From a bacterium SCSIO 12827 (GTDB taxonomy: Bacteria > Pseudomonadota > Alphaproteobacteria > Rhodospirillales > Casp-alpha2), in assembly GCA_024397995.1 (NCBI GenBank), contig CP073746.1, positions 248,001 to 312,000 on the forward strand: a stretch of DNA of 64,000 nucleotides, in the 5' to 3' direction. This document shows positions 12,077-42,757 of this stretch, piece by piece; position 1 is the stretch's first letter, and each line of letters starts with the position of its first letter. A model generated the notes under the pieces. It saw only the letters and a program-made list of their open reading frames with translations, did not search any database and had not been told where the DNA came from. Both the position numbers and the translations under genes were made by a program.

Positions 12077-13454
12077 ATTGCTCTCGATATTTGTTGACGA
12101 TGGTGAGGGCGATGATGTTCAGCACCAAAGTGACGCAGAACAGGATCAAGCCGAGGGCGAAGGCGGCGAGGGTCTTGGCGCTGTCGAACTCCTGGTCGCC
12201 GACCAGCAGGGTGACGATCTGCACCGTGACCGTGGTCACCGCTTCGAAGGGATTGGCTGTCAGGTTGGCGGCCAGGCCGGCGGCCATGACGACGATCATG
12301 GTTTCACCGATGGCGCGCGAGACGCCGAGCAGAATCGAGCCGACGATGCCCGGCAATGCTGCCGGCAGGATTACCTGCTTGATGGTTTCCGATTTGGTGG
12401 CGCCCAGGCCGTAGGAGCCTTCGCGCAGCGACTGCGGCACCGCCGACATCACGTCGTCGGACAGGGACGAGACGAAGGGGATGATCATGATCCCCATCAC
12501 GATGCCGGCCGCCAAGGCACTTTCTGACGAAATGGTCAGGCCAAAATCGAGCCCCCATTCGCGGAAGAACGGGGCCACCGTCAGGGCGGCGAAGAAGCCG
12601 TAGACCACGGTCGGGATGCCGGCCAGGATTTCCAGCAGCGGCTTGACCGTGCCGCGCACCTTGGGGGGGGCGTATTCGGACATGTAGATCGCCGCCATCA
12701 GGCCGACCGGGGCGGCCACGCACATGGCGATCAGGGAAATCAGCATCGTGCCGGCCAGCAGCGGCACCGCGCCGAACAGGCCGGTCGCCCCCACCTGGTC
12801 CTTGCGCAGCGCCGTCTGCGGGCTCCATTCCAGGCCGAACACGAAGTCCAAGGGATGAACCTTTTGGAAGAAGCGCAGGGATTCGAACAGTAGCGACAGG
12901 ATGATGCCCAGCGTGGTCAGTACGGCGATGGTCGAGCAGATGATCATGATCGCCATGGCCGCCTTCTCGACGCTGTTGCGGGCGCGCAGGTCGGGCGCGA
13001 TACGGCCGCGGGCCACCAAGATCCCGCCGCAGGTCACGGCGACGAGGATCGCCGTCAGGAGCATTTTCGACGTGGTCAGAAGCTGGCCGTAGAAGGCGGC
13101 GGCGTTCTTCAGGTCAAGGTCGATGATCTCGCGGCTGACGATGTCGCCGTTGGCCAGGTTCTTGACGTCGTTCAGCAGCAGGGACAGTTCGGCCGCGGGC
13201 AGGGATTTCATGCTGTCCGGCAGATTGGCGATCAGCATGCTGTCCATGATGGTGTTTTCAAGCGCCATCCAGCCGACCAGCAGCAGGAACCCGGGCGCCG
13301 CGCACCACAGGCCGATGTAATAGCCGTAGTAATTGGGCAGCGAATGCAGGTTGCGGACCTGACCACCGGCGGTCTTCAGGGCGCGGGACCGGCCCAGGTA
13401 GTATCCGAAGATGGTCAGAAGGGCGAGGACGCCAAACAAAACGGGGAAGCTCAT
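12069..13454 (-). CDS. pstC: Phosphate ABC transporter permease PstC
   Basis: A 461-residue permease starting at the ATG at 13454 (MSFPVLFGVLALLTIFGYYL). It has several N-terminal helices, an extended periplasmic segment with NDVKNLANGDI, and the permease domain with MSEYAPPKVRGTVKPLLEILAGIPTVVYGFFA and the EAA loop SLREGSYGLGATKSETIKQV. E. coli PstC is shorter (about 319 residues); the extra N-terminal region matches the alphaproteobacterial type. It lies 143 bp downstream of pstS, with a strong hairpin between, and overlaps pstA. Confidence 0.95.
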   Translation of the reverse strand: MSFPVLFGVLALLTIFGYYLGRSRALKTAGGQVRNLHSLPNYYGYYIGLWCAAPGFLLLVGWMALENTIMDSMLIANLPDSMKSLPAAELSLLLNDVKNLANGDIVSREIIDLDLKNAAAFYGQLLTTSKMLLTAILVAVTCGGILVARGRIAPDLRARNSVEKAAMAIMIICSTIAVLTTLGIILSLLFESLRFFQKVHPLDFVFGLEWSPQTALRKDQVGATGLFGAVPLLAGTMLISLIAMCVAAPVGLMAAIYMSEYAPPKVRGTVKPLLEILAGIPTVVYGFFAALTVAPFFREWGLDFGLTISSESALAAGIVMGIMIIPFVSSLSDDVMSAVPQSLREGSYGLGATKSETIKQVILPAALPGIVGSILLGVSRAIGETMIVVMAAGLAANLTANPFEAVTTVTVQIVTLLVGDQEFDSAKTLAAFALGLILFCVTLVLNIIALTIVNKYREQYD

Positions 13455-28744: not shown

Positions 28745-29332
28745 ATGTCGGGCGCCGTCCTGAAGATCCTGGTCATTGATGAGAGTGCGGAACGCGCCGA
28801 GGTCCTGTTGGCGGGGCTTCAGGACGCGGGCTATCATCAGGTTCATCATCTGCGCGAGATGACGGATTTGGTGCCCCGCATCGCCGCCATCGACCCGGAC
28901 GTGATCCTGATCGACCTGGAAAACCCCAACCGCGACACGGTCGAACAGATGTTCCGCGTGTCGCGTGAGGTCAAGCGCCCGATCGCCATGTTCGTCGACG
29001 AAAGCGACCCGGAAATGACCAAGCAGGCGATCCGGGCCGGGGTCAGCGCCTATATCATCGACGGCCTGCGCCGTGACCGCATCCAGCCCGTGGTCGATGT
29101 CGCGATCTCGCGGTTCGAGGCCTACCGCGAACTGGAACAGCGGGTGACCGACGCCGAATTGCAATTGGCCGAACGCAAGGTCATTGACCGGGCCAAGGCC
29201 GTGCTCATGGAAAAACGCGCCATGACCGAACCCGCCGCCTATGACGCCATCCGCGCGATGGCCCGTGCCAAAGGCAAGCGCATGGTCGAGGTTGCGGAAA
29301 GCCTGCTGACGGCACGAGAACTGGGCATCTAG
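28745..29332 (+). CDS. NasT-like ANTAR response regulator with intact receiver
   Basis: A 195-residue protein: a receiver-like domain (residues 6-120; acidic residues in LVIDES, phospho-acceptor Asp in VILIDLENP) followed by a coiled coil and an ANTAR RNA-binding domain (RKVIDRAKAVLMEKRAMTEPAAYDAIRAMARAKGKRMVEVAESLL). ANTAR proteins bind paired RNA hairpins and prevent terminator formation in leaders, often of nitrogen genes (NasT, AmiR, NasR). The Lys normally after strand five is not evident (SAYIIDGL). No matching sensor gene is adjacent. One of three ANTAR proteins in this window. Confidence 0.88.
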   Translation: MSGAVLKILVIDESAERAEVLLAGLQDAGYHQVHHLREMTDLVPRIAAIDPDVILIDLENPNRDTVEQMFRVSREVKRPIAMFVDESDPEMTKQAIRAGVSAYIIDGLRRDRIQPVVDVAISRFEAYRELEQRVTDAELQLAERKVIDRAKAVLMEKRAMTEPAAYDAIRAMARAKGKRMVEVAESLLTARELGI

Positions 29333-29496
29333 TCCGGGTCACGGCGTTCCGTCTTGCCCGGCGACGCTTAATTTTCATCGCGCTTTTTTGACGGACCCGG
29401 CGTCGTTAACAGGGCCGCCGACTGCTTGTGTTCGGATATGTCCCCATCGCGTCCGGGCAATTGACTCGGTGGGGGAATCGGCATACTTCATGAATA

Positions 29497-29514
29497 TAGT
29501 AAGTTAACTAACTA
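29497..29514 (+). promoter_or_regulatory. Palindromic operator before the TetR gene
   Basis: TAGTAAGTTAACTAACTA is an 18-bp inverted repeat with one mismatched base pair, centred on GTTAAC, 12 bp before the ATG at 29527. TetR-family repressors typically bind such palindromes over their own promoters. Confidence 0.6.
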
Positions 29515-29526
29515 GGTTTGTTATTG

Positions 29527-30093
29527 ATGCAACGTGCCGCCGCGCAAGCGAAACAGCATGACCTCGTGACTGCCGCCGCGGGCCTTTTTCATGAGCAAGG
29601 GGTGGCGAAGACGACCCTGACCGACGTGGCGCGCGCCGCCAACATCCCACTCGGGAGTGTCTTCTATTATTTCAAGACCAAGGATGATCTCGTTTCCTCG
29701 GTGATCGACCGGAGGGAAGACGGGATCGCGCGGCTGATCTCGCGTCATCAGGCTCTTTCAGATCCGCGGGCCCGCCTGCTGGCGCTCGTGCAGATATGGG
29801 TCGAGGACCGTGAGGTCGATGCCCTCTTCGGGTGCCCGATCGGCAGTCTCTGCTTCGAGTTGGCGCGGACACGAGGGCCGCTGAGCGACCATGCGGCGCA
29901 GCCGTTCAGATTGCTGCTCGATTGGTGCGAGGAACAATTTCGCCTGCTTGGCGCCGAGGATGCGTCTGGCCGATCCGCCCTGCATCTCGTCTCGGCCCTT
30001 CAGGGGATCAGTCTGATCGCGGCGGTTTTCGCCGATCCGGAGATGATCGTCACGGAGGCGGCGCATCTGCGGGAATGGCTGCAGACAGTTTAG
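29527..30093 (+). CDS. TetR-family transcriptional regulator
   Basis: 188 residues from the ATG at 29527; TTG codons upstream at 29518 and 29524 are weaker choices. The helix-turn-helix is TTLTDVARAANIPLGSVFYYFKTKDDLV, close to the TetR consensus (LYYHFxSKExLL). The ligand domain contains CPIGSLCFEL and DWCEEQF, with three cysteines. The downstream DsrE-like gene (94 bp away, same strand) is the likely partner target; the ligand may be a thiol-reactive compound, but this is a guess. Confidence 0.88.
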   Translation: MQRAAAQAKQHDLVTAAAGLFHEQGVAKTTLTDVARAANIPLGSVFYYFKTKDDLVSSVIDRREDGIARLISRHQALSDPRARLLALVQIWVEDREVDALFGCPIGSLCFELARTRGPLSDHAAQPFRLLLDWCEEQFRLLGAEDASGRSALHLVSALQGISLIAAVFADPEMIVTEAAHLREWLQTV

Positions 30094-30187
30094 CGGCCAG
30101 AACATTCATGCGGGCAACCGCGCATGCGCTGTCGTGCGGCTGCTTCGATGACAACATAAAGACAGCGCCACAACAGGAAGGATTACG

Positions 30188-30715
30188 ATGAAACGGACAT
30201 TTCTAATCGCGGCCGCGAGTGCGGTTGCAATCTCGATGAGCACGGCCGGGTTTGCCAATGACGAGTTGTCACCCTACGGCACGTCGAAGACCGACTTGCA
30301 CGAATATCCGACGATCGATGCCGTGTTCGACGCGAACTATACGCAGCCCAAGGATCTCAACATGCTTTACGCGTTCGTGAAGAACACGATGAAGCCGCTG
30401 AAAGGCAAGATGGTGGTCGTGAGCCATGGCCCGGAACTGCGCGTATTCGCGAAGGAGAACTACATCAAGTACCAGGGCATCGTCGACAAGATGAAGGAAC
30501 TGGCCGACAATGGCGTGGAATTCCGCATGTGCCACAATGCCTTGCGGGCGGCCGGCTACAAGGCCGACGATTTCCACGGTTTTGTCACGGTGGTCCCGGC
30601 GGGATTTCCCGAAATCGCCTATCTGCAGTCCCAGGGCTTCCGCTATATCAACCCGCTTCCCTATTCACCCAGGGATGTCCGCTACCTGGACCAACCGCAA
30701 TTGAAGAAGAACTAG
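30188..30715 (+). CDS. Exported DsrE-like protein
   Basis: A 175-residue protein with a Sec signal peptide (MKRTFLIAAASAVAISMSTA, cleavage near AGFAN). The mature part has the DsrE/DsrF-like Rossmann core: VVVSHGPELRVFAKE and then the single conserved cysteine in VEFRMCHNALRAAGYKADDF (Cys115). Cytoplasmic DsrE proteins carry sulfur on that Cys; periplasmic members are less well understood. AGGAAGG precedes the ATG. Probably co-transcribed with and controlled by the TetR gene upstream. Confidence 0.8.
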   Translation: MKRTFLIAAASAVAISMSTAGFANDELSPYGTSKTDLHEYPTIDAVFDANYTQPKDLNMLYAFVKNTMKPLKGKMVVVSHGPELRVFAKENYIKYQGIVDKMKELADNGVEFRMCHNALRAAGYKADDFHGFVTVVPAGFPEIAYLQSQGFRYINPLPYSPRDVRYLDQPQLKKN

Positions 30716-30802
30716 GGCGTCTACCCCTCCGCCACGCCCGCCCCGGCTGCCGGTCGGTCAGATGTGACCGGTCGCCGGGGTCGGAAGGCAAGGGGCCCCG
30801 GC

Positions 30803-31609
30803 TTATTTAAGTTCGGCCAAGACCGCTTCGATGGCGCGCATCATGGCGTCGCATTTCCGGGCGTCTTGGGCGTCGGAATGGGGCGGGGCGAATTGGCCGG
30901 AATCGTTATCGAAATACTGTCCGGCGGCATCGGCGAAGGTGTCATCAAGGGCGGCGCGGCGCAGGATATCCGCGCCGATGCCGATGTCCTTACCGTCCAT
31001 GCCGAAGGCTTCCTTCACCATCTTGCTGCCGAGCAGAGAGCCCGGGTTGACTGCGATGACGGCCGGGCCGTCCGGCCCCAGGGCATCGGCCATTGCGCGC
31101 GTCCACATGGTGATCGCCAACTTGCTTTGCGCGTAGGCGGCGCCGTCGGTCAGCCGGGTCCGGCCAGCCAGGGCGTCTGCATCGACGGGGGCCTGGGCGG
31201 CGGAGGACAGGTTGATCACCCGCCCGCCCGCGCCGAGCAGCGGCAGAAGGCGCCGTGTCAGCAGATAGGGGGCGATCGTATTGACGGCGAACCGCACGTC
31301 GAGCCCGTCCGCCGTGACGGCATCGGGCGCGTTGTAGACGCCCGCGTTGTTGATCAGCACGTCCAGACGGTCGTGCCGGCTGGCCACGGCCTTCGCCAAG
31401 GCCTCGACCTCGGCCATGTTGGACAGATCCGCCAGATAGGTCTCCACCCCGCCCCGGCCGGCAAGGCCGGCGATCATGGCTTCCGCGTCGGCCAGTTTCG
31501 CCGGGCTGCGGCCATGGAGCAGAACGGTATGGCCCCGCGCCGCCAATTCCTTGGCCGTCGCCAGGCCGATCCCGTCTGTCGCCCCGGTGATGAGAATGGT
31601 CTTTGTCAT
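30803..31609 (-). CDS. Short-chain dehydrogenase/reductase
   Basis: A 268-residue Rossmann enzyme: cofactor loop GATDGIG (8-14), NNAG (about 89-92), catalytic Ser in NLSSAAQAP and Tyr-Lys in YAQSK. The HGR after strand 2 favours NADP(H). It resembles retinol-dehydrogenase-like SDRs (long C-terminal region, no membrane helix). It lies five bases downstream of the quinone-oxidoreductase-like gene, so the two form an operon that is probably controlled by the divergent HxlR regulator at 32754. Confidence 0.9.
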   Translation of the reverse strand: MTKTILITGATDGIGLATAKELAARGHTVLLHGRSPAKLADAEAMIAGLAGRGGVETYLADLSNMAEVEALAKAVASRHDRLDVLINNAGVYNAPDAVTADGLDVRFAVNTIAPYLLTRRLLPLLGAGGRVINLSSAAQAPVDADALAGRTRLTDGAAYAQSKLAITMWTRAMADALGPDGPAVIAVNPGSLLGSKMVKEAFGMDGKDIGIGADILRRAALDDTFADAAGQYFDNDSGQFAPPHSDAQDARKCDAMMRAIEAVLAELK

Positions 31610-31614
31610 GGCGC

Positions 31615-32631
31615 CTACTCGAACCCGGCCAGAACGGTCTTGCCGATCGCCCGGCCGCTTTCCTGCTGTGCATGGGCGGCGCGCAGGTTGGCGGCGTTGA
31701 TCGTGCCGCCGTGGCTGTTGGCGGTGGTGACGATGCGGCCCAGGTCGACAAGCTCCGACACCCGGTCGAGCAGATCATGCTGTGCGGTGATGTCCGGCGC
31801 GTCGTGCATGGCGCGGGCGAACATGAATTCGAAATGCAGGGTCAGCGCCTTTGATTTGAGCTTCAGGGCGTCGAGCGTCACGGGATCGTCGATCAGGGCG
31901 ATGGTGCCGCGCGGCTGGATCAGGTCGATGATCGCGTCATAGTGCTGTTCCGTCGCGGTCAGGCCGGCCACGTAGCGGGGCCGAAGGCCCAGGGCATCAA
32001 GCTGCGGCTTGAGGGGCTGGCGGTGGTCGATGGTATGGTCCGCGCCCATCCGCAGGCACCAGTCGCGGGTTTCGTCGCGCGACGCGGTGGCGACCACGGT
32101 CAGGCTGGTCAGCGCCTTGGCGATCTGGATCAGGATCGATCCGACCCCGCCGGCGGCGCCGATGATCAGCAGGCTCTCGCCGGCGCCTTCACCCTCGCGC
32201 AGACCCATGCCCTCGAACAGCAGTTCCCAGGCCGTGATCGACGTCAGCGGCAGGGCCGCCGCCTGGGCATGGTCGAGGGCCTTGGGCTTGCGGCCGACGA
32301 TGCGCTGATCGACGATGTGCAGCTCGCTGTTGGTGCCGGGACGGCCAATGGCGCCGGCGTAGAATACGTCGTCGCCGGGCTGAAACAGGGTGACGCCGCT
32401 GCCCACCGCCTTGACCGTGCCGGAGGCATCCCAGCCGAGAACCTTGTGCCCCGTTTCCGGCTCGGCCCGCATGCGGACCTTGGTGTCGACCGGGTTGACG
32501 GAGACGGCGGCCACTTCGACCAATAGGTCGTCGGCGCCGAGGTTAGATGCCGTCGGGTCCGGCAGTTCGATGTCTTCAAGCGATTTCGGATCGTCAATGG
32601 GTAGGCTCTTGGCGTAGCCGATGGCACGCAT
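31615..32631 (-). CDS. Zinc-type alcohol dehydrogenase-like / quinone oxidoreductase (MDR superfamily)
   Basis: 338 residues from the ATG at 32631 (MRAIGYAKSLPIDDPKSLED); a longer frame to 32694 runs through the promoter and is not favoured. The MDR fold is clear: VNPVDTKVR, LGWDASGTVKAVGSGV, then GAAGGVGSILIQIAKAL for NADPH binding. The zinc-ligand Cys/His pattern of true alcohol dehydrogenases is not apparent, which fits the COG0604 zinc-free subgroup. Divergent from HxlR; likely induced by electrophiles or quinones. Confidence 0.88.
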   Translation of the reverse strand: MRAIGYAKSLPIDDPKSLEDIELPDPTASNLGADDLLVEVAAVSVNPVDTKVRMRAEPETGHKVLGWDASGTVKAVGSGVTLFQPGDDVFYAGAIGRPGTNSELHIVDQRIVGRKPKALDHAQAAALPLTSITAWELLFEGMGLREGEGAGESLLIIGAAGGVGSILIQIAKALTSLTVVATASRDETRDWCLRMGADHTIDHRQPLKPQLDALGLRPRYVAGLTATEQHYDAIIDLIQPRGTIALIDDPVTLDALKLKSKALTLHFEFMFARAMHDAPDITAQHDLLDRVSELVDLGRIVTTANSHGGTINAANLRAAHAQQESGRAIGKTVLAGFE

Positions 32632-32641
32632 GTCGGTTCTC

Positions 32642-32736
32642 CTAGTATAGGGCGCTGTTGGGAGATATATTGCTTGTATAGTGAATGAAGACAAGTACGC
32701 ACATTAAATGCGTATAGATACATTTTGGATACTATA
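32642..32736. promoter_or_regulatory. Divergent promoter region with repeated GTATA/GATAC elements
   Basis: The 122-bp gap between the MDR gene and HxlR contains GTATAG three times (32645, 32676 and 32712), a short palindrome GTATAGATAC (32712-32721) and a second GATAC 11 bp further (32728-32732). Such AT-rich repeats fit an HxlR-family operator. Seen by eye; binding inferred. Confidence 0.4.
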
Positions 32737-32753
32737 AGGAAATCCCCGATGTT

Positions 32754-33173
32754 ATGGAGCCCCAGATGACCCTCGCCAAGCCGGTGCCTGCCGCCGAAAC
32801 GCCCGAACCGGGCCGCGTGCCGCGGTTTTCGAAGTACGATTGTTCGCCCGGCTGCCCTGTCGAGGCGGCGCTGGAACAGATCGGCGGAAAGTGGAAAGGG
32901 GTGGTGCTGTACCATCTGGCCGACGGCACCAAGCGCTTCAACGAACTTAATCGACTGGCCGGGTCGGTCACGCAGCGCACCCTGACCAAGCAGCTGCGCG
33001 AGCTTGAGGGGGATGGAATCATCAGCCGGACGGTCTATCCCGTGGTCCCGCCGAAGGTCGAATATGCGCTGACGCCGAAGGGGCAGTCGCTGATCCCGGT
33101 GATCATGGCGTTGCGGGATTGGGGCATGGCCCATGCCATGCCGACGGCAACGGCCTCGGGCCAGCCTGTTTAG
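32754..33173 (+). CDS. HxlR-family transcriptional regulator
   Basis: A 139-residue winged-helix protein. The HxlR signature is CPVEAALEQIGGKWKGVVLYHL, followed by RFNELNRLAGSVTQRTLTKQLRELEGDGII and the wing TVYPVVPPKVEYALTPKGQSL. Two cysteines just before helix 1 (Cys30, Cys34, in YDCSPGCPVEA) match the redox-sensing Cys of YodB/QorR-type members. It faces the MDR-SDR operon, which it probably represses. The ATG at 32766 is an alternative start. Confidence 0.9.
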   Translation: MEPQMTLAKPVPAAETPEPGRVPRFSKYDCSPGCPVEAALEQIGGKWKGVVLYHLADGTKRFNELNRLAGSVTQRTLTKQLRELEGDGIISRTVYPVVPPKVEYALTPKGQSLIPVIMALRDWGMAHAMPTATASGQPV

Positions 33174-33536
33174 CGCGTCGCATTCTTGCGGCGCCGGGGA
33201 CATCATCGAGCTTGCGCGCATTTTTTGCCTAAATTTTATGCCCTATCTTTATTCGTGATTGTTTTTTGTGCGATTACGTGACCCATCGTTGCCGCGGCCG
33301 ATTAAAATATTCAGCAATATCAATAACCTGAACGCCATCACCGAGTTGGCACGGCCCTTGTAATAGGAACTGTGCCGGTCGGTATGCCGCCTGGCGACCT
33401 CTGCGCCCAAAGACGGGCGAGCTTACGGAGGCCATTTGCCCCATGACGGGCTGGAATTCCGGCATGCGCCGGGATTTGTAGCTTTCGCCGCCGGACCCTT
33501 CGGCGGCTTGGATTGGAACACGGGGCGACCACGGTC
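33174..33536 (+). other. Intergenic region upstream of the cyanate locus
   Basis: 363 bp without a gene. The first part is AT-rich (33220-33330), which could favour DNA bending. It is followed by a sigma-54-like element (33346-33362) and then by two hairpins in the leader, CCGGC-ATGC-GCCGG (33459-33472) and GCCGCCG-N7-CGGCGGC (33487-33507). No convincing NtrC palindrome was found. Confidence 0.5.
33346..33362 (+). promoter_or_regulatory. Candidate sigma-54 (-24/-12) promoter
   Basis: TTGGCACGGCCCTTGTA matches the consensus TTGGCACG-N4-TTGCA at all but one base (GT instead of GC at -12). It lies about 175 bp before the ANTAR gene at 33537, in an AT-rich setting. Nitrogen-scavenging genes are often NtrC/sigma-54 dependent, which fits the cyanate operon. 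Confidence 0.55.
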
Positions 33537-34142
33537 ATGCAAATTCGTCTGATGACGCCAGTTGGCACCAGCGTTCTCGTGGTCGAGCGGGACCGCCCGC
33601 GCGCCGAGGCGACCAAGCGCCTGCTGGTCGAGCAGGGCTACAGCGTCACAGGCGTGCTGACCGACATCAGCCGCTTCGCCGAGACCGTCGCCCAAACCAC
33701 CGCCGATGCCGTCATGATCTATGCGACCGAGCCCGATAAGGGCTTGCTCGACGCGCTGCGCGCCCTGCCGACGGAGCAGCGCCGCCCGACCATCCTGATC
33801 ACCGAGGACGGGTCCACCGACGCCATCCACCAGGCCGTTGCCGCCGGGGTCAACGCCTGCGTCGTGGTCGGCGTCAACGGCAACCGCATCCGCTCCGCCA
33901 TTGATCTGGCCAAGGCCAATTTTTCCAACACCCTCGGGCTGCGCGAGGAATTGGACGAGGCGCGCAACGCGCTGCGCGACCGCAAGGTGATCGAACGCGC
34001 CAAGGGCATCATCATGCGCGAACGCAGCCTGGACGAGGACGCGGCCTATACCCTGCTGCGCACCCGCGCCATGCAGCGCGGCGTACGCCTGGTGGCGGTT
34101 GCGGAAATGGTCGTTGAGGCTGCGGAGGTCATGCAGTTGTAG
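33537..34142 (+). CDS. ANTAR antitermination protein with degenerate receiver
   Basis: 201 residues from the ATG at 33537 (MQIRLMTPVGTSVLVVERDR); a TTG at 33513 would extend it. The C-terminal ANTAR domain is strong (LRDRKVIERAKGIIMRERSLDEDAAYTLLRTRAMQRGVRLVAVAEMVV). The receiver fold is kept, but the phospho-acceptor strand reads AVMIYATEP, with no Asp, so it is probably not phosphorylated and instead responds to a ligand or partner protein. It is followed by a 215-bp leader with hairpins and a terminator before the cyanate transporter, its most obvious target. Confidence 0.88.
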   Translation: MQIRLMTPVGTSVLVVERDRPRAEATKRLLVEQGYSVTGVLTDISRFAETVAQTTADAVMIYATEPDKGLLDALRALPTEQRRPTILITEDGSTDAIHQAVAAGVNACVVVGVNGNRIRSAIDLAKANFSNTLGLREELDEARNALRDRKVIERAKGIIMRERSLDEDAAYTLLRTRAMQRGVRLVAVAEMVVEAAEVMQL

Positions 34143-34191
34143 GAATTCGCCGCCCGGCGCGATCCAGGCGCGACGGCGGCACACCAGTTTG

Positions 34192-34281
34192 GCGGTTGGA
34201 CGATGACGCCCGACCGCTGGAGAACCGAACCGGGCGACGATGAGGTTGTCGGGCTCATACAGGGGGACGATGACGGCCCCC
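34192..34281 (+). promoter_or_regulatory. Leader with repeated-loop RNA hairpins upstream of the cyanate operon
   Basis: Hairpin 1: GCGGTTGG (34192-34199) pairs with CCCGACCGC (stem bases 34210-34217), loop ACGATGACGC. Hairpin 2: GGCGAC-GATGAG-GTTGTC (34233-34250), a hexaloop. Hairpin 3: GGGGG-ACGATGACGG-CCCCC (34262-34281). Loops 1 and 3 share ACGATGACG, and GACGATGA occurs three times (34199, 34236, 34266). ANTAR proteins recognise paired hairpins, though the usual A1/G4 hexaloop rule is not met here. Proposed as the antitermination target. Confidence 0.5.
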
Positions 34282-34291
34282 GACAGGACCA

Positions 34292-34343
34292 GGACGTCCA
34301 TCGACGGGACCGCGGAAGCGGCCGCCGCGTTGGGCGTTTTTTT
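34292..34343 (+). terminator. Leader terminator before the cyanate transporter genes
   Basis: An imperfect GC-rich hairpin (outer arms CGTCCA/TGGGCG, inner GCGG-AAGCGG-CCGC) is followed directly by seven T's (34337-34343). It sits only 14 bp before the ATG at 34358, with GGAG in between. A terminator in this place implies that readthrough is controlled. Confidence 0.6.
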
Positions 34344-34357
34344 AATGGAGTAAATCA

Positions 34358-35989
34358 ATGGGCGCTTTTGCAAACCCGTTTGATCCCGACAAGCTCTTGT
34401 GGAACGGCTGTCCCTGCGGTCAGCACCGATCCATCATCGAGCACAACATGGCCATGGCCGCGGCGCAGGGTAAGGACGCGTCGCGGTTCCAATGTTCGGA
34501 AGACGTGGACCGCGCGGAGGCCACATCGGCTTCTGGGGCCGCCAGCTCCGGCCACAGCGCGGCCAACTGCTTCGATCCGTCCTGCCAGGAAGCTGCCTGC
34601 GTTTCCATGCGTCAGGCCGCCGAAGCCAACGGCCAGGGCGACATGATGCGGGCCGTTCAGAACCATCAGCAGGAAATGGCCGACCTGGAGGCCGAACCGG
34701 AAGCCTCGGACCTGGAATCCTCCATGTCCCGGGCTGTCGAGTCGGCCGTCATGCAGGGACTGTTCGGCGGCGACATGCATCGCCGTGCGTTCCTCAAGGC
34801 GGTGGGTGCGGGGACGGCTTATGCCGCCATCGCCTCCATGTTCCCGTTGGAAGAAGCCAAGGCCATGGCGGTCGAAATGGCTCAGGCCGGCGGAAAGCTT
34901 GAAAAGACCAAGCTGAACGTCGGCTTCGTGCCGATCACCTGCGCCACGCCGATCATCATGGCGCATCCGATGGGCTTCTATAAGAAGTACGGGCTCGACG
35001 TTTCCGTGATCAAGACGGCCGGCTGGGCCGTGTCCCGCGACAAATCGCTTTCCGGCGAATACGACGCGGCGCACATGCTCACGCCCATGCCGCTCGCGAT
35101 CAACATGGGGGCGGGCTCGACCAAGGTGCCTTGGACCATGCCGGCGGTGGAAAACATCAACGGCCAGGCCATCGTGCTGTCGACCAAGCACAAGGACAAG
35201 AACGACCCGAAGATGTGGAAGGGCTTCAAGTTCGCCGTGCCGTTCGAGTATTCCATGCACAACTTCCTGCTGCGCTACTACGTGGCGGAACATGGGCTGG
35301 ATCCCGACAAGGACATCCAGATCCGCGTCCTGCCGCCGCCGGAAATGGTCGCCAACCTGCGGGCGGAAAACGTCGACGGCTACCTCTCGCCGGATCCGTT
35401 CAACCAGCGGGCGGTCTATGACGGCGTCGGCTTCATCCACAAGCTGACGAAGGACATTTGGGACAAGCATCCCTGCTGCGCCTTCGCCGCGTCCAAGTCC
35501 TTCATCGACGAAAACCCCAACACCTTCCTGGCGTTGTGGAAGTCGATCATGGAGGCCACCGACTTCGCGTCGGTCAAGGCCAACCGCAAGGAAATCTCCA
35601 AGGCGATTTCGCCGAAGAACTACCTGAACCAGCCGGTCACGGTTCTGGAACAGGTGCTCGTGGGGACGTATGCGGACGGCCTCGGCAACGTGAAGAAGGT
35701 CCCGGACCGGATCGATTTCGATCCGTTCCCGTGGCACTCCATGGGGGTGTGGATCCTGACGCAGATGAAGCGCTGGGGCTACATCAAGGGCGACGTCGAC
35801 TACAAGCAGGTCGCCGAAGAGGTCTATCTCGCCACCGATGCGCAGAAGCTGATGGCCGAGATGAAACTGACCGGGCCGTACGGCACGCCGCCGAAAACGA
35901 CCTACGAAACCTACAACATCATGGGCAAGACGTTCGATGCCGCGAAAGCGGAAGAATACGTCGAGTCCTTCGCCATCAAGAGAACGTAA
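34358..35989 (+). CDS. ABC transporter substrate-binding protein, cyanate/nitrate type, with Cys-rich leader
   Basis: A 543-residue protein of the NrtA/CmpA/CynA group (KTKLNVGFVPITCATPIIMAHPMGFYKKYGLDVSV; then NGQAIVLSTKHKD and VDGYLSPDPFNQRAVYDGVGF). The order is unusual: residues 1-135 are hydrophilic with six cysteines (18, 20, 46, 71, 76, 81; GCPCGQH is the first pair), then an internal twin-arginine motif HRRAFLKAVGAGTAYAAIAS (141-160), then the binding domain. With a cyanase gene in the operon, cyanate is the likely ligand, although nitrate/nitrite or bicarbonate cannot be excluded. The ATG at 34358 has GGAG eight bases upstream. Confidence 0.85.
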   Translation: MGAFANPFDPDKLLWNGCPCGQHRSIIEHNMAMAAAQGKDASRFQCSEDVDRAEATSASGAASSGHSAANCFDPSCQEAACVSMRQAAEANGQGDMMRAVQNHQQEMADLEAEPEASDLESSMSRAVESAVMQGLFGGDMHRRAFLKAVGAGTAYAAIASMFPLEEAKAMAVEMAQAGGKLEKTKLNVGFVPITCATPIIMAHPMGFYKKYGLDVSVIKTAGWAVSRDKSLSGEYDAAHMLTPMPLAINMGAGSTKVPWTMPAVENINGQAIVLSTKHKDKNDPKMWKGFKFAVPFEYSMHNFLLRYYVAEHGLDPDKDIQIRVLPPPEMVANLRAENVDGYLSPDPFNQRAVYDGVGFIHKLTKDIWDKHPCCAFAASKSFIDENPNTFLALWKSIMEATDFASVKANRKEISKAISPKNYLNQPVTVLEQVLVGTYADGLGNVKKVPDRIDFDPFPWHSMGVWILTQMKRWGYIKGDVDYKQVAEEVYLATDAQKLMAEMKLTGPYGTPPKTTYETYNIMGKTFDAAKAEEYVESFAIKRT

Positions 35990-36000
35990 GGGGCTTATCC

Positions 36001-36840
36001 ATGTCCATGTCGCTGCAATCCCGTGCCATCGTCCTGTCGATCGCGTCGTTTTTCGCCTTCGCCGGTCTGTGGCAACTGTTACTGCCCGCCGGCACGGGAT
36101 CGGCGGCGGACATGGATCCCGCTTACGCCGCCTTGATGGGGGCTACGGCCAAGGGGGCCTCGGCAATGCCGGGGCCCCTCGAGGTCGGCAAGCAGATCTG
36201 GGAGCACGTCCTCAATCCCTTCTACGACGCCGGTCCCAACGACAAGGGCATCGGCATTCAGCTGGGCTATTCCATCCTGCGCGTTCTGGTCGGCTTCGGC
36301 TTCGCCGTGGTGGTGGCCATTCCGCTCGGCTTCCTGATCGGCATGTCGCCGCTGTTCTACAAGGCGCTCGATCCGTTCATTCAGATCATGAAGCCGGTCT
36401 CGCCATTGGCCTGGATGCCGCTCGCCCTCTACACGATCAAGGATTCCATTATTTCCTCCGTGTTCGTGATCTTCATCTGTTCGGTCTGGCCGATGTTGAC
36501 CAACACGGCTTTCGGCGTCGCCAGCGTGCGCAAGGAATGGCTGAACGTGGCCAAGACGCTCGAGGTCGGCCATCTGCGTACGGCCTTCCGCGTGATCCTG
36601 CCGGCGGCGGCACCCACGATCATGACCGGCATGCGGATTTCCGTCGGCATCGCCTGGCTGGTCATCGTCGCGGCCGAGATGCTCGTAGGCGGTACGGGCA
36701 TCGGCTACTTCGTGTGGAACGAATGGAACAACCTGTCGATCACCAACGTGATCGCCGCGATCTTCTTCATCGGCCTGATCGGCATGGTGCTGGACCTGAT
36801 GCTGTCCTACCTGGCGCGTCTCGTCACCTACACCGAATAA
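36001..36840 (+). CDS. ABC transporter permease, nitrate/cyanate type
   Basis: 279 residues from ATG 36001, with GTAAGGGG upstream. Six or so hydrophobic helices; the conserved permease loop is [50 protein letters not shown], as in NrtB/CynB/TauC. The periplasmic loop after helix 1 (residues about 30-85) is long. It forms the membrane part with the binding protein (11 bp upstream) and the ATPase (20 bp downstream). Confidence 0.92.
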
Positions 36841-36859: not shown

Positions 36860-37789
36860 ATGATGTCCGATAGCATGAGCAAATCCCCCCAGCCCCGCAT
36901 CCGTGTCGAAGGTCTGGCGCAGCGCTTCCCGGCGCCGGACGGATCGGGTGAAACCACCGTCTTCGAGGACATCTGGTTCTCTGTCGAACCCGGCGAATTC
37001 GTCTGCCTGATCGGTCATTCCGGCTGCGGCAAGACGACCCTGCTGAACATCCTTGCGGGCTTGGCAACGGCAAGTTCCGGCAACGTCATCGTGTCGGGCC
37101 AGGAAGTCACCGGCACGTCGCTTGAGCGCGCGGTGGTATTCCAGAGCCACGCCCTGATGCCCTGGATGACGGTGATGGGCAACATCGCCTTCGCCGTGCG
37201 TTCGAAATGGCCGCGCATGGCCAAGGCGGAGATGCTCAAGCATTGCCAGAAATTCATCGACCTGGTGCATCTGACCGGCTCGGAGAATAAGAAGCCGTCA
37301 CAGCTGTCTGGCGGCATGAAACAACGCGTCGGCATCGCCCGCGCCATGGCGATCGAGCCGCAGATCATGCTGTTGGACGAACCGTTTTCGGCGCTCGATG
37401 CGCTGACCCGCGGCTCCCTGCAGGACGAGCTTCTCAGCATCTGCGCCGAGACCGAGCAGACCGTGTTCATGATCACCCATGACATCGACGAGGCGATCCT
37501 GTTGGCCGACAAGATCATTCTGATGACCAACGGGCCGGATGCGCGGATCTGCGAGATCGTCGAAAACTCGCTGCCGCGCGACCGCACCCGCGCCAACATG
37601 CACACCCAGGCCAATTACTATCCCGTCCGCAACCATCTGATCGAATTCCTGGTCAACCGGTCCGTCGGTTTCAAGGACGAACTGGCCTCCCCCGATTACG
37701 ACCCCCGGCATCCGCCCGTCGTGCGCCCCACCGTCATCACCGACGAAGCCGGTGAAACCGGCACGGGTGTGCTGCGCGCGCAGGCTTGA
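36860..37789 (+). CDS. ABC transporter ATPase, nitrate/cyanate type
   Basis: A 309-residue nucleotide-binding subunit: Walker [11 protein letters not shown]-loop [12 protein letters not shown], signature [14 protein letters not shown], Walker [17 protein letters not shown] and switch His in [18 protein letters not shown]/CynD-like in length, lacking the extra NrtA-like C-terminal domain of NrtC. A start at ATG 36860 or 36863 is possible (ATGATG). Energises uptake together with the two preceding gene products. Confidence 0.93.
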
Positions 37790-37831: not shown

Positions 37832-38281
37832 ATGACCCGCGCCGAACTGACCGAAAAGATCGTCACCCACAAAATCATGAAAGGCATCAAGTGGGCCGAC
37901 GTCGCAGAAAAGGTCGGCCATTCCAAGGAATGGGTGACCGCCGCACTGCTGGGCCAAATGTCCATGACCAAGGATCAGGCAACCGCGGCGGCCAACGCCA
38001 TGGGCTTGAACCTGTCGGAAGAGGAAATCGCCATGCTGATGACTGTGCCGTCGCGCGGTTCGCTCGAAAGCGCGGTTCCGACCGATCCCCTGATCTATCG
38101 CCTCTATGAACTGGTCAGCGTCTACGGGACCACGTTCAAGGCCCTGATCGAGGAAGAATTCGGTGACGGCATCATGTCGGCCATCGACTTCGAAATGGAC
38201 ATCGACCGCAAGGCCGACCCCAAAGGAGATCGCGTGGTCATCACCCTGAACGGCAAATTCCTGCCTTACAAAGTCTACTAG
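37832..38281 (+). CDS. cynS: Cyanase (cyanate hydratase)
   Basis: A 149-residue enzyme, close to the family's 156. It converts cyanate and bicarbonate into ammonia and two CO2 and works as a decamer. The catalytic triad is visible in context: Arg90 and Glu93 in PLIYRLYELVSVYG and Ser116 in GDGIMSAIDF (E. coli Arg96, Glu99, Ser122). The N-terminal helix-turn-helix-like half (WADVAEKVGHSKEWVTAALLG) is typical. AAGGAGA precedes the ATG. It follows the ABC transporter by 42 bp, giving uptake and assimilation in one operon. No carbonic anhydrase (CynT) is adjacent. Confidence 0.97.
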   Translation: MTRAELTEKIVTHKIMKGIKWADVAEKVGHSKEWVTAALLGQMSMTKDQATAAANAMGLNLSEEEIAMLMTVPSRGSLESAVPTDPLIYRLYELVSVYGTTFKALIEEEFGDGIMSAIDFEMDIDRKADPKGDRVVITLNGKFLPYKVY

Positions 38282-41774: not shown

Positions 41775-42386
41775 TCATCCTTTGCACATCACCAGGTTTT
41801 CCGTATCGATGATCTGCTCCGCGACGACCCGCATGGGTTGGGACCGCTTCATGGCCAGTTTTCGAATCTCGTGGTAGGCCGCGTCTTCCTCAAGGCTCCG
41901 CAATTTCATGACGATGCCCTTGGCCCGCTCGATGGTAATGCGGTCGGCAAGCTTGTCTTCCTTTTCCTTCAGCCGCTTCTTCAACTCGCGGATGGTCAGG
42001 AACTGCGCCCGGGTCCATTCGGCCAGGGTCGGAAAGGATTTCAGCCCCGCGTCCACGGGCAGGTAGGCGTTGACCCCGGCGTGTGATGCCTGGGCCATGA
42101 TGTCCGGCCGTGCGTCGTCGGCCAGGAACATGACCGGTAGCGGGGCTGATTCGCTTAGGCTCTTCAGGTTTGCGAAGGGGTATTCCTCGGGCTTGGCGAC
42201 ATGTACCACGATCACGTCCGGGGCCGAGTCGCGGGCCTTGTCGGCAAGGGGTTCATTGGGGGCGGCAAGGGCGACCACTTCGTGCATCGCGCCACCTGAT
42301 CCCTGGGCGTGGGCCACGATGGCCTCCAGCGCGTCGGGGATATCCGTTACCAGCATCACACGCATTGTCGTTTTCTTACTTGCCAT
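41775..42386 (-). CDS. ANTAR antitermination protein with degenerate receiver
   Basis: 203 residues from the ATG at 42386 (MASKKTTMRVMLVTDIPDAL); ATG 42365 is the alternative. The ANTAR domain is clear (DRITIERAKGIVMKLRSLEEDAAYHEIRKLAMKRSQPMRVVAEQII). The receiver's central strand reads DVIVVHVAKPEE, with no phospho-acceptor Asp at the usual place, so it is a pseudo-receiver like the protein at 33537. A coiled coil (RELKKRLKEKEDKLADR) links the domains. It converges on the cyanate operon and diverges from a LytS-type kinase gene. Confidence 0.88.
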   Translation of the reverse strand: MASKKTTMRVMLVTDIPDALEAIVAHAQGSGGAMHEVVALAAPNEPLADKARDSAPDVIVVHVAKPEEYPFANLKSLSESAPLPVMFLADDARPDIMAQASHAGVNAYLPVDAGLKSFPTLAEWTRAQFLTIRELKKRLKEKEDKLADRITIERAKGIVMKLRSLEEDAAYHEIRKLAMKRSQPMRVVAEQIIDTENLVMCKG

Positions 42387-42757
42387 TGTTGTTGTTTGTG
42401 TCGGGCGTCGGCAGATGTTTGGGCCCGCACTTCGCACATGCAAAAAGCAAGTCCTGTGCCAATTTGACACGGAGACGAATTATCATATTGACGCAATCAC
42501 TTAGGGGAATTCATCCATATGCGGACAGCGCAGCAGGCTTGTCATTTTTGAATAAAAAATAGGCTGTTATTTTTTGGTGATAAAAAAAAATGCATTAAAC
42601 GGCAAGATCTATCGTGCGCGGGGGCGCCTGCAAATGGCCCGTAGCTTGCATGATAAGGTGGCATCCTGCCTTGACCGCTGACATTAAGTGTCTCTGTGCA
42701 GCCTGCACTTTCGGTCTAGTTAATAATATTTCTCATTTAGGGTAGGTTGATCGAATA
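42387..42757. other. AT-rich divergent intergenic region
   Basis: 371 bp between the ANTAR gene (minus) and the kinase gene (plus). It holds an AT-rich hairpin, AAAAAATA-GGCTGT-TATTTTTT (42554-42575), with a six-base loop. Read on the minus strand the loop is ACAGCC, which has A at position 1 and G at position 4 as in ANTAR target loops. No clear promoter was picked out, and no open frame looks coding. Confidence 0.45.

Follow-up and report, generated by a model that had tools for sequence, protein, structure and literature searches.

A switch in which a hexaloop hairpin competes with a terminator has been described for the ANTAR-regulated eut, nasF and amiE systems (PMC3369931). The features recognized in such RNAs were delineated by SELEX with NasR, which identified a C:G closing pair, an A at position 1 of the loop (A1) and a G at position 4 (G4) (PMC7496416). 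In the structure of an EutV-RNA complex, G4 stacks on Tyr164 and A1 does not engage in a specific contact, and it was proposed that A1 would assist the fold of the RNA, perhaps by blocking pairing across the loop (PMC8934654). In eut, mutation of A1 significantly lowered induction (PMC3369931).

These properties provide the framework for a locus in a 64,000-nucleotide stretch of the genome of the bacterium SCSIO 12827, termed the window, which we have compared to five relatives, three of the same genus (G002, G004, G006), one of the same family (G030) and one of the same order (G042). Our analysis suggests that the region 34188-34343 is an antiterminator/terminator leader of an operon for cyanate uptake and degradation that would be switched by ANTAR2, the product of the preceding gene, a reading to which we assign a probability of roughly 0.83. 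It draws on sequence comparison, which has provided the hairpins, their covariation, the conservation of loops, the overlap of the last hairpin with an arm of the terminator and the gene context. The region and its 5' boundary contain the following elements:

34149..34180, plus strand: P0, a stable hairpin in the MFE fold right after the ANTAR2 stop codon, without a U tract
34189..34220, plus strand: P1, with hexaloop GATGAC at 34202-34207
34227..34256, plus strand: P2, with hexaloop GATGAG at 34239-34244
34262..34281, plus strand: P3, with hexaloop GATGAC at 34269-34274 and a 4-nt linker to P4
34286..34299, plus strand: P4, GGAC[CAGGAC]GTCC with hexaloop 34290-34295, its stem invariant in six genomes and overlapping the terminator 5' arm
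34291..34343, plus strand: intrinsic terminator, AGGACGTCCA ... TGGGCGTTTT with U7, found in the MFE fold of six genomes

A first-pass annotation had placed hairpins around ACGATGACGC (34192-34217) and ACGATGACGG (34262-34281), with a third carrying a GATGAG hexaloop in between, all of which were recovered at these positions. Its assignment of ten-base loops to the outer two had to be revised. In both, six bases (GATGAC) form the loop and an invariant C:G pair closes it (alignment columns 19-26 and 87-94). The ten-base reading is ruled out by relatives with loops AAAGGC, AATGGC and AACGAC, in which the C:G pair is retained and the inner G-C pair is absent. The C[GATGAC]G element resides above a single mismatch, A·C for P1 and A·G for P3, and the loop of P2 reads C[GATGAG]G. 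The annotation had further overlooked P4, with which the number of tandem six-base stem-loops amounts to four (loops starting at 34202, 34239, 34269 and 34290), where ANTAR antiterminator RNAs contain at least two. Its statement that the loops depart from the rule of A1 and G4 was half right: A1 is replaced, by G in P1 to P3 and by C in P4, but in the correct register G4 is retained in each of the four loops in all six genomes, as is the C:G closing pair defined for NasR. When the leader was dinucleotide-shuffled 20,000 times, three such hairpins with an R..G.. hexaloop arose in 12 shuffles, and three sharing the first five loop bases in a single one. The leader contains the sole cluster of three such hairpins on both strands of the 64-kb window, and its fold is more stable than that of shuffles (z -2.2). 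In P1 and P3, G1 is able to pair with C6, and folding predicts a tetraloop at this place, which could conceal G4 and represents the type of closure that A1 has been suggested to prevent (PMC8934654). Searches against Rfam, where a match presupposes the presence of an ANTAR family, gave no hit at gathering scores across the window and, at 33300-34400 down to E 1, nothing except for one spurious miRNA match. A G+C-rich stem resembling P0 is present in relatives.

The terminator was located as initially described, with seven T at 34337-34343 that end 14 nt ahead of the ATG at 34358. In the MFE fold, AGGACGUCCA pairs with UGGGCGUUUU, with the end of U7 coming next. The 3' half of P4 doubles as the 5' arm of this terminator, bases 34291-34299 being common to both. 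Folding in silico with and without the 3' arm indicates that the two structures are mutually exclusive, as in other ANTAR targets: if the 3' arm is held single-stranded, P4 takes up the shared bases in five genomes, but it did not form in the sixth, G002. A similar overlap with the terminator is found for the last hairpin, GGAC[AAAGGC or AACGGC]GTCC, of the more distant loci L041, L036 and L040. The linker between P3 and P4 spans 4-6 nt, which is near the 5-12 nt known from eut leaders (PMC3369931).

Two ANTAR proteins encoded upstream are of immediate relevance:

33537..34142, plus strand: ANTAR2, a pseudo-receiver and ANTAR antiterminator protein of 201 residues, the probable ligand of the leader
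28745..29332, plus strand: ANTAR1, a NasT-like receiver protein with Asp, which carries Arg at the position of EutV Met172

The protein starting at 33537 had already been named as candidate for RNA binding, and its ANTAR domain (PF03861, E 5.9e-19, 68 bits compared to a cut-off of 27.3) and location directly upstream support its role as predicted regulator. ANTAR2 is similar to EutV (6wsh/6ww6) and Rv1626, and it shares 8 of the 11 RNA-contact residues of EutV (Arg142, Lys143, Lys149, Glu160, Tyr164, Arg168, Met172 and Arg177 in EutV numbering), with the predicted contacts being identical in all six genomes. Its receiver does not contain the phospho-acceptor Asp. The reverse is found in ANTAR1, which adjoins ANTAR2 in relatives: the Asp is kept, and each of the four sequences compared (from the window, L032, L034 and L035) has Arg in place of the Met that is essential for RNA binding in EutV, a pattern that suggests a division of labour. 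In the window, the two genes are separated by about 4 kb (~29333-33330) encoding TetR, a small exported protein, an SDR, a dehydrogenase and an HxlR-like protein, and in the very close L032 by about 350 bp, pointing to an insertion in the former or a loss in the latter. ANTAR3 (window 41775-42470, minus strand) lacks the phospho-acceptor Asp and contains Pro at the position of EutV Arg177. Homologues of ANTAR proteins on plasmids are less than 60% identical.

With four ANTAR proteins in the genome, the leader might instead be the target of another ligand, either NasT in conjunction with NasS or ANTAR1 and ANTAR2 together as a heterodimer, in which case the signal would be nitrate or a stimulus sensed by ANTAR1. 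We regard this as conceivable though doubtful. The complementary losses in ANTAR1 and ANTAR2 are in line with it, and a NasT-NasS pair is indeed encoded elsewhere, with a downstream leader whose hexaloops (GCCGAA, GTCGAT and GTCGTC) equally show G1 and G4. In this second leader of the genus (L140 3318-3631, corresponding to G000:C1 about 3114817-3115130, and also L143-L146), the fourth base is G and so is the first, apart from one loop that starts with T in two species; one stem changes by compensation between species, a sigma-54-like element precedes it and a terminator was not seen. However, ANTAR2 is the direct neighbour of the leader investigated here in every leader-bearing genome with readable upstream DNA, and a search of the G030 genome identified ANTAR1 and ANTAR2 but not NasT.

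Recognition by an ANTAR protein is also supported by the conservation of the leader. The order ANTAR2, leader, transporter and cyanase is common to the six genomes, with the cyanase checked in all but G006. In the alignment of related leaders that had been proposed in the first-pass annotation, 89% of the cells in the four hairpins are paired and six pairs have changed on both sides, compared to a mean of 1.7 in shuffles, none of which reached six in 500, and to at most two in slid controls. This covariation originates from P1 and P2, whose loops are kept, whereas the stems of P3 and P4 do not vary. None of the four hairpins shows any change in the C:G closing pair or in G4. At position 1, P1 to P3 have G within the genus, G030 and G042 have A there, and P4 has C throughout. 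A covariance model made from the six leaders and searched against the loci of relatives detected diverged leaders ahead of the same operon (L041 with E 1e-13, L040 with 3e-10 and L036/L176 with 9e-7), whose loops AACGGC, AATGGC, AAAGGC and similar are canonical with respect to A1 and G4. Since the model links it to these canonical leaders, the leader is, judged by homology, a variant of an ANTAR antiterminator RNA despite the missing A1. The early proposal of a protein-recognized leader that might be a variant ANTAR target thus appears justified by the upstream ANTAR gene, the covarying hairpins, the canonical loops in diverged relatives and the predicted exclusion of P4 and terminator. There is one copy of the leader in the window genome and there are six strong ones among 317 genomes of the order. 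The model also matches the window at 12512 with 15 bits.

The same features bear on two further explanations. A constitutive terminator might fix the ratio between the mRNAs of regulator and transporter, with the loops being decaying ANTAR sites devoid of function. Decay would be in line with the loss of A1 in all four loops and with a G1-C6 pair that would close those of P1 and P3, but it is an improbable scenario in light of GATGAC remaining identical in P1 and P3 of four genomes despite compensatory changes in the P1 stem, of a G4 that never changes and of the retained overlap between P4 and the terminator. An RNA-binding protein of a different family, to which the repeated GATGA loops on different stems could point, is highly implausible, since the homologous leaders with loops AATGGC, AACGGC and AAAGGC share only G4 and nearly always the C:G pair, and since they adjoin an ANTAR gene.

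The gene of the probable ligand ANTAR2 is itself preceded by a leader (leader A) with the following elements:

33347..33362, plus strand: sigma-54-type promoter TGGCACG-GCCC-TTGTA, a regular-expression match and the probable start of the whole transcript
33398..33431, plus strand: P1A, with C:G-closed hexaloop AAAGAC at 33409-33414 and canonical A1 and G4
33438..33451, plus strand: P2A, GCCC[CATGAC]GGGC, with a 5' arm that has the Shine-Dalgarno sequence as alternative partner
33522..33528, plus strand: Shine-Dalgarno sequence of ANTAR2, GGGGCGA, with UUGCCCC (33436-33442) as partner in the predicted ground state

The remaining core genomes have a similar sigma-54-type element at the equivalent place, with TTGAA at its -12 end in G006. 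Both A1 and G4 are present in the P1A hexaloop of each of the six genomes, and 5 of the 11 pairs of this hairpin exhibit two-sided changes. In P1A and P2A together, the 15 pairs are 100% paired and six have changed on both sides (0 of 500 shuffles), a count that is biased towards structure by the joining of stem and loop segments by hand and the omission of variable unpaired parts. The 5' arm of P2A pairs with the Shine-Dalgarno sequence instead in the MFE fold of five genomes out of six, and two-sided changes, most of them in G042, affect 3 of the 7 pairs in this interaction. Since the two pairings are mutually exclusive, stabilisation of P2A by ANTAR binding would free the Shine-Dalgarno sequence and might increase translation of ANTAR2, a direction of effect that we infer from the geometry and which is suggestive of positive autoregulation. 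Actinobacterial ANTAR RNAs also overlap with the ribosome-binding site, where leader A is predicted to act, but binding was reported to repress translation in these cases (PMC8164766), whereas the geometry of leader A predicts that the site would become accessible upon binding.

Concerning the absent A1, a comparison of the G1 genus with its A1 relatives found no change at the EutV contact positions of the protein that would account for the replacement by G. With contact residues unchanged, the most parsimonious interpretation is a position 1 that would be free to drift, at which A1 gave way to G or C. A1 is the rule among the other NasT leaders compared, and G1 occurs in the middle hairpin (GACGAT) of L181, L186, L189 and L190 and in the last hairpin (GATGGC) of L201, all from lineages separate from the genus of the window. 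The NasT leaders L179, L180, L181, L186, L189 and L190 belong to another family of the order and contain three hexaloops, the last of which (AAAGGC) pairs with the GCCTTTTTT terminator. On a more speculative note, the code might truly consist of one letter, G4 in a C:G-closed hexaloop, with G1 and C1 loops fully working in this lineage, as would be allowed by the lack of a specific contact between EutV and A1, with a translational and a transcriptional switch flanking the regulator gene on a single transcript and with ANTAR1 and ANTAR2 forming a split heterodimer, a combination that we consider possible but rather unlikely. As searches for ANTAR targets are seeded on A1 and G4, leaders of the present kind could be missed. 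Moreover, because the outgroup leaders carry A1 and their homologues here G1 or C1, with the predicted contacts of the protein unchanged, the role of A1 in either protein contact or loop opening (PMC8934654) is directly testable with natural variants. It is thus the relaxed A1 rule, together with the four tandem hexaloops and the two switches around one regulator gene, that makes this locus notable.

The operon downstream of the leader comprises four genes:

34358..35989, plus strand: substrate-binding protein of the nitrate/cyanate (NrtA/CynA) type (PF13379, E 9.5e-87), with an N-terminal extension and an internal Tat motif
36001..36840, plus strand: ABC permease of the NrtB/CynB type (TIGR01183 over cut-off)
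36860..37789, plus strand: ABC ATPase of the NrtD/CynD type (TIGR01184 over cut-off)
37832..38281, plus strand: cynS, cyanase (TIGR00673, E 8e-54)

From the presence of cynS we infer cyanate as substrate, possibly besides nitrate or nitrite. In the substrate-binding protein, about 140 residues precede the Tat-like motif HRRAFLKAVG, which is unusual for a Tat signal; this extension contains a conserved Cys/His stretch (FDP..L..GCxCGxH) and is, with varying length, common to alpha- and betaproteobacterial relatives. A cyanase is located 3' of the transporter genes in most of the 80 loci matched by this protein in Alpha-, Beta- and Gammaproteobacteria. Since an ANTAR gene is mostly absent upstream in these loci, the ANTAR layer looks like a local addition to the cyanate operon, and the set of papers searched for ANTAR control of a cyanate operon contained no such link.

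In our model of regulation by ANTAR2, binding, the inducing signal and the roles of single hairpins are predictions. Transcription would start at the sigma-54-type promoter, cross the ANTAR2 gene and reach the leader where, by default, the 5' arm ACGUCCA would pair with UGGGCGU and RNA polymerase would stop at U7. Active ANTAR2 would bind to the hexaloops with C:G closure, chiefly those of P3 and P4, with P1 and P2 presumably offering extra docking sites. As P4 would then occupy the 5' arm of the terminator, the latter would not form and cynABDS would be transcribed. G4 is likely the base that is read by ANTAR2, whereas position 1 would not be read, which could explain the drift of A1 to G and C.

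Collectively, the locus shares with eut of E. faecalis, nasF/NasR of K. oxytoca and amiE/AmiR of P. aeruginosa the C:G-closed hexaloops with G4 and a short linker (PMC3369931, PMC7496416, PMC8934654), a last hairpin that excludes an intrinsic terminator, the ANTAR regulator and the relation of the operon to nitrogen. It differs from these systems in its four tandem hexaloops instead of two, in the replacement of A1 by G in P1 to P3 and by C in P4, and in a regulator whose receiver is devoid of a phospho-acceptor, with no adjacent NasS and a cyanate operon as target. With the alphaproteobacterial NasT-NasS leaders of nas and nos (PMC6759348, PMC3795266) it has in common a receiver-ANTAR protein of the NasT type and, as in the NasT-type loci L147, L148, L179, L201 and L215 with their three hexaloops, a tandem arrangement ahead of a terminator or U-rich stretch. 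However, while those leaders contain A1 almost throughout and NasS nearby where checked, A1 has been lost in the leader described here and no NasS is adjacent, thus setting it apart as a variant within an otherwise familiar architecture.
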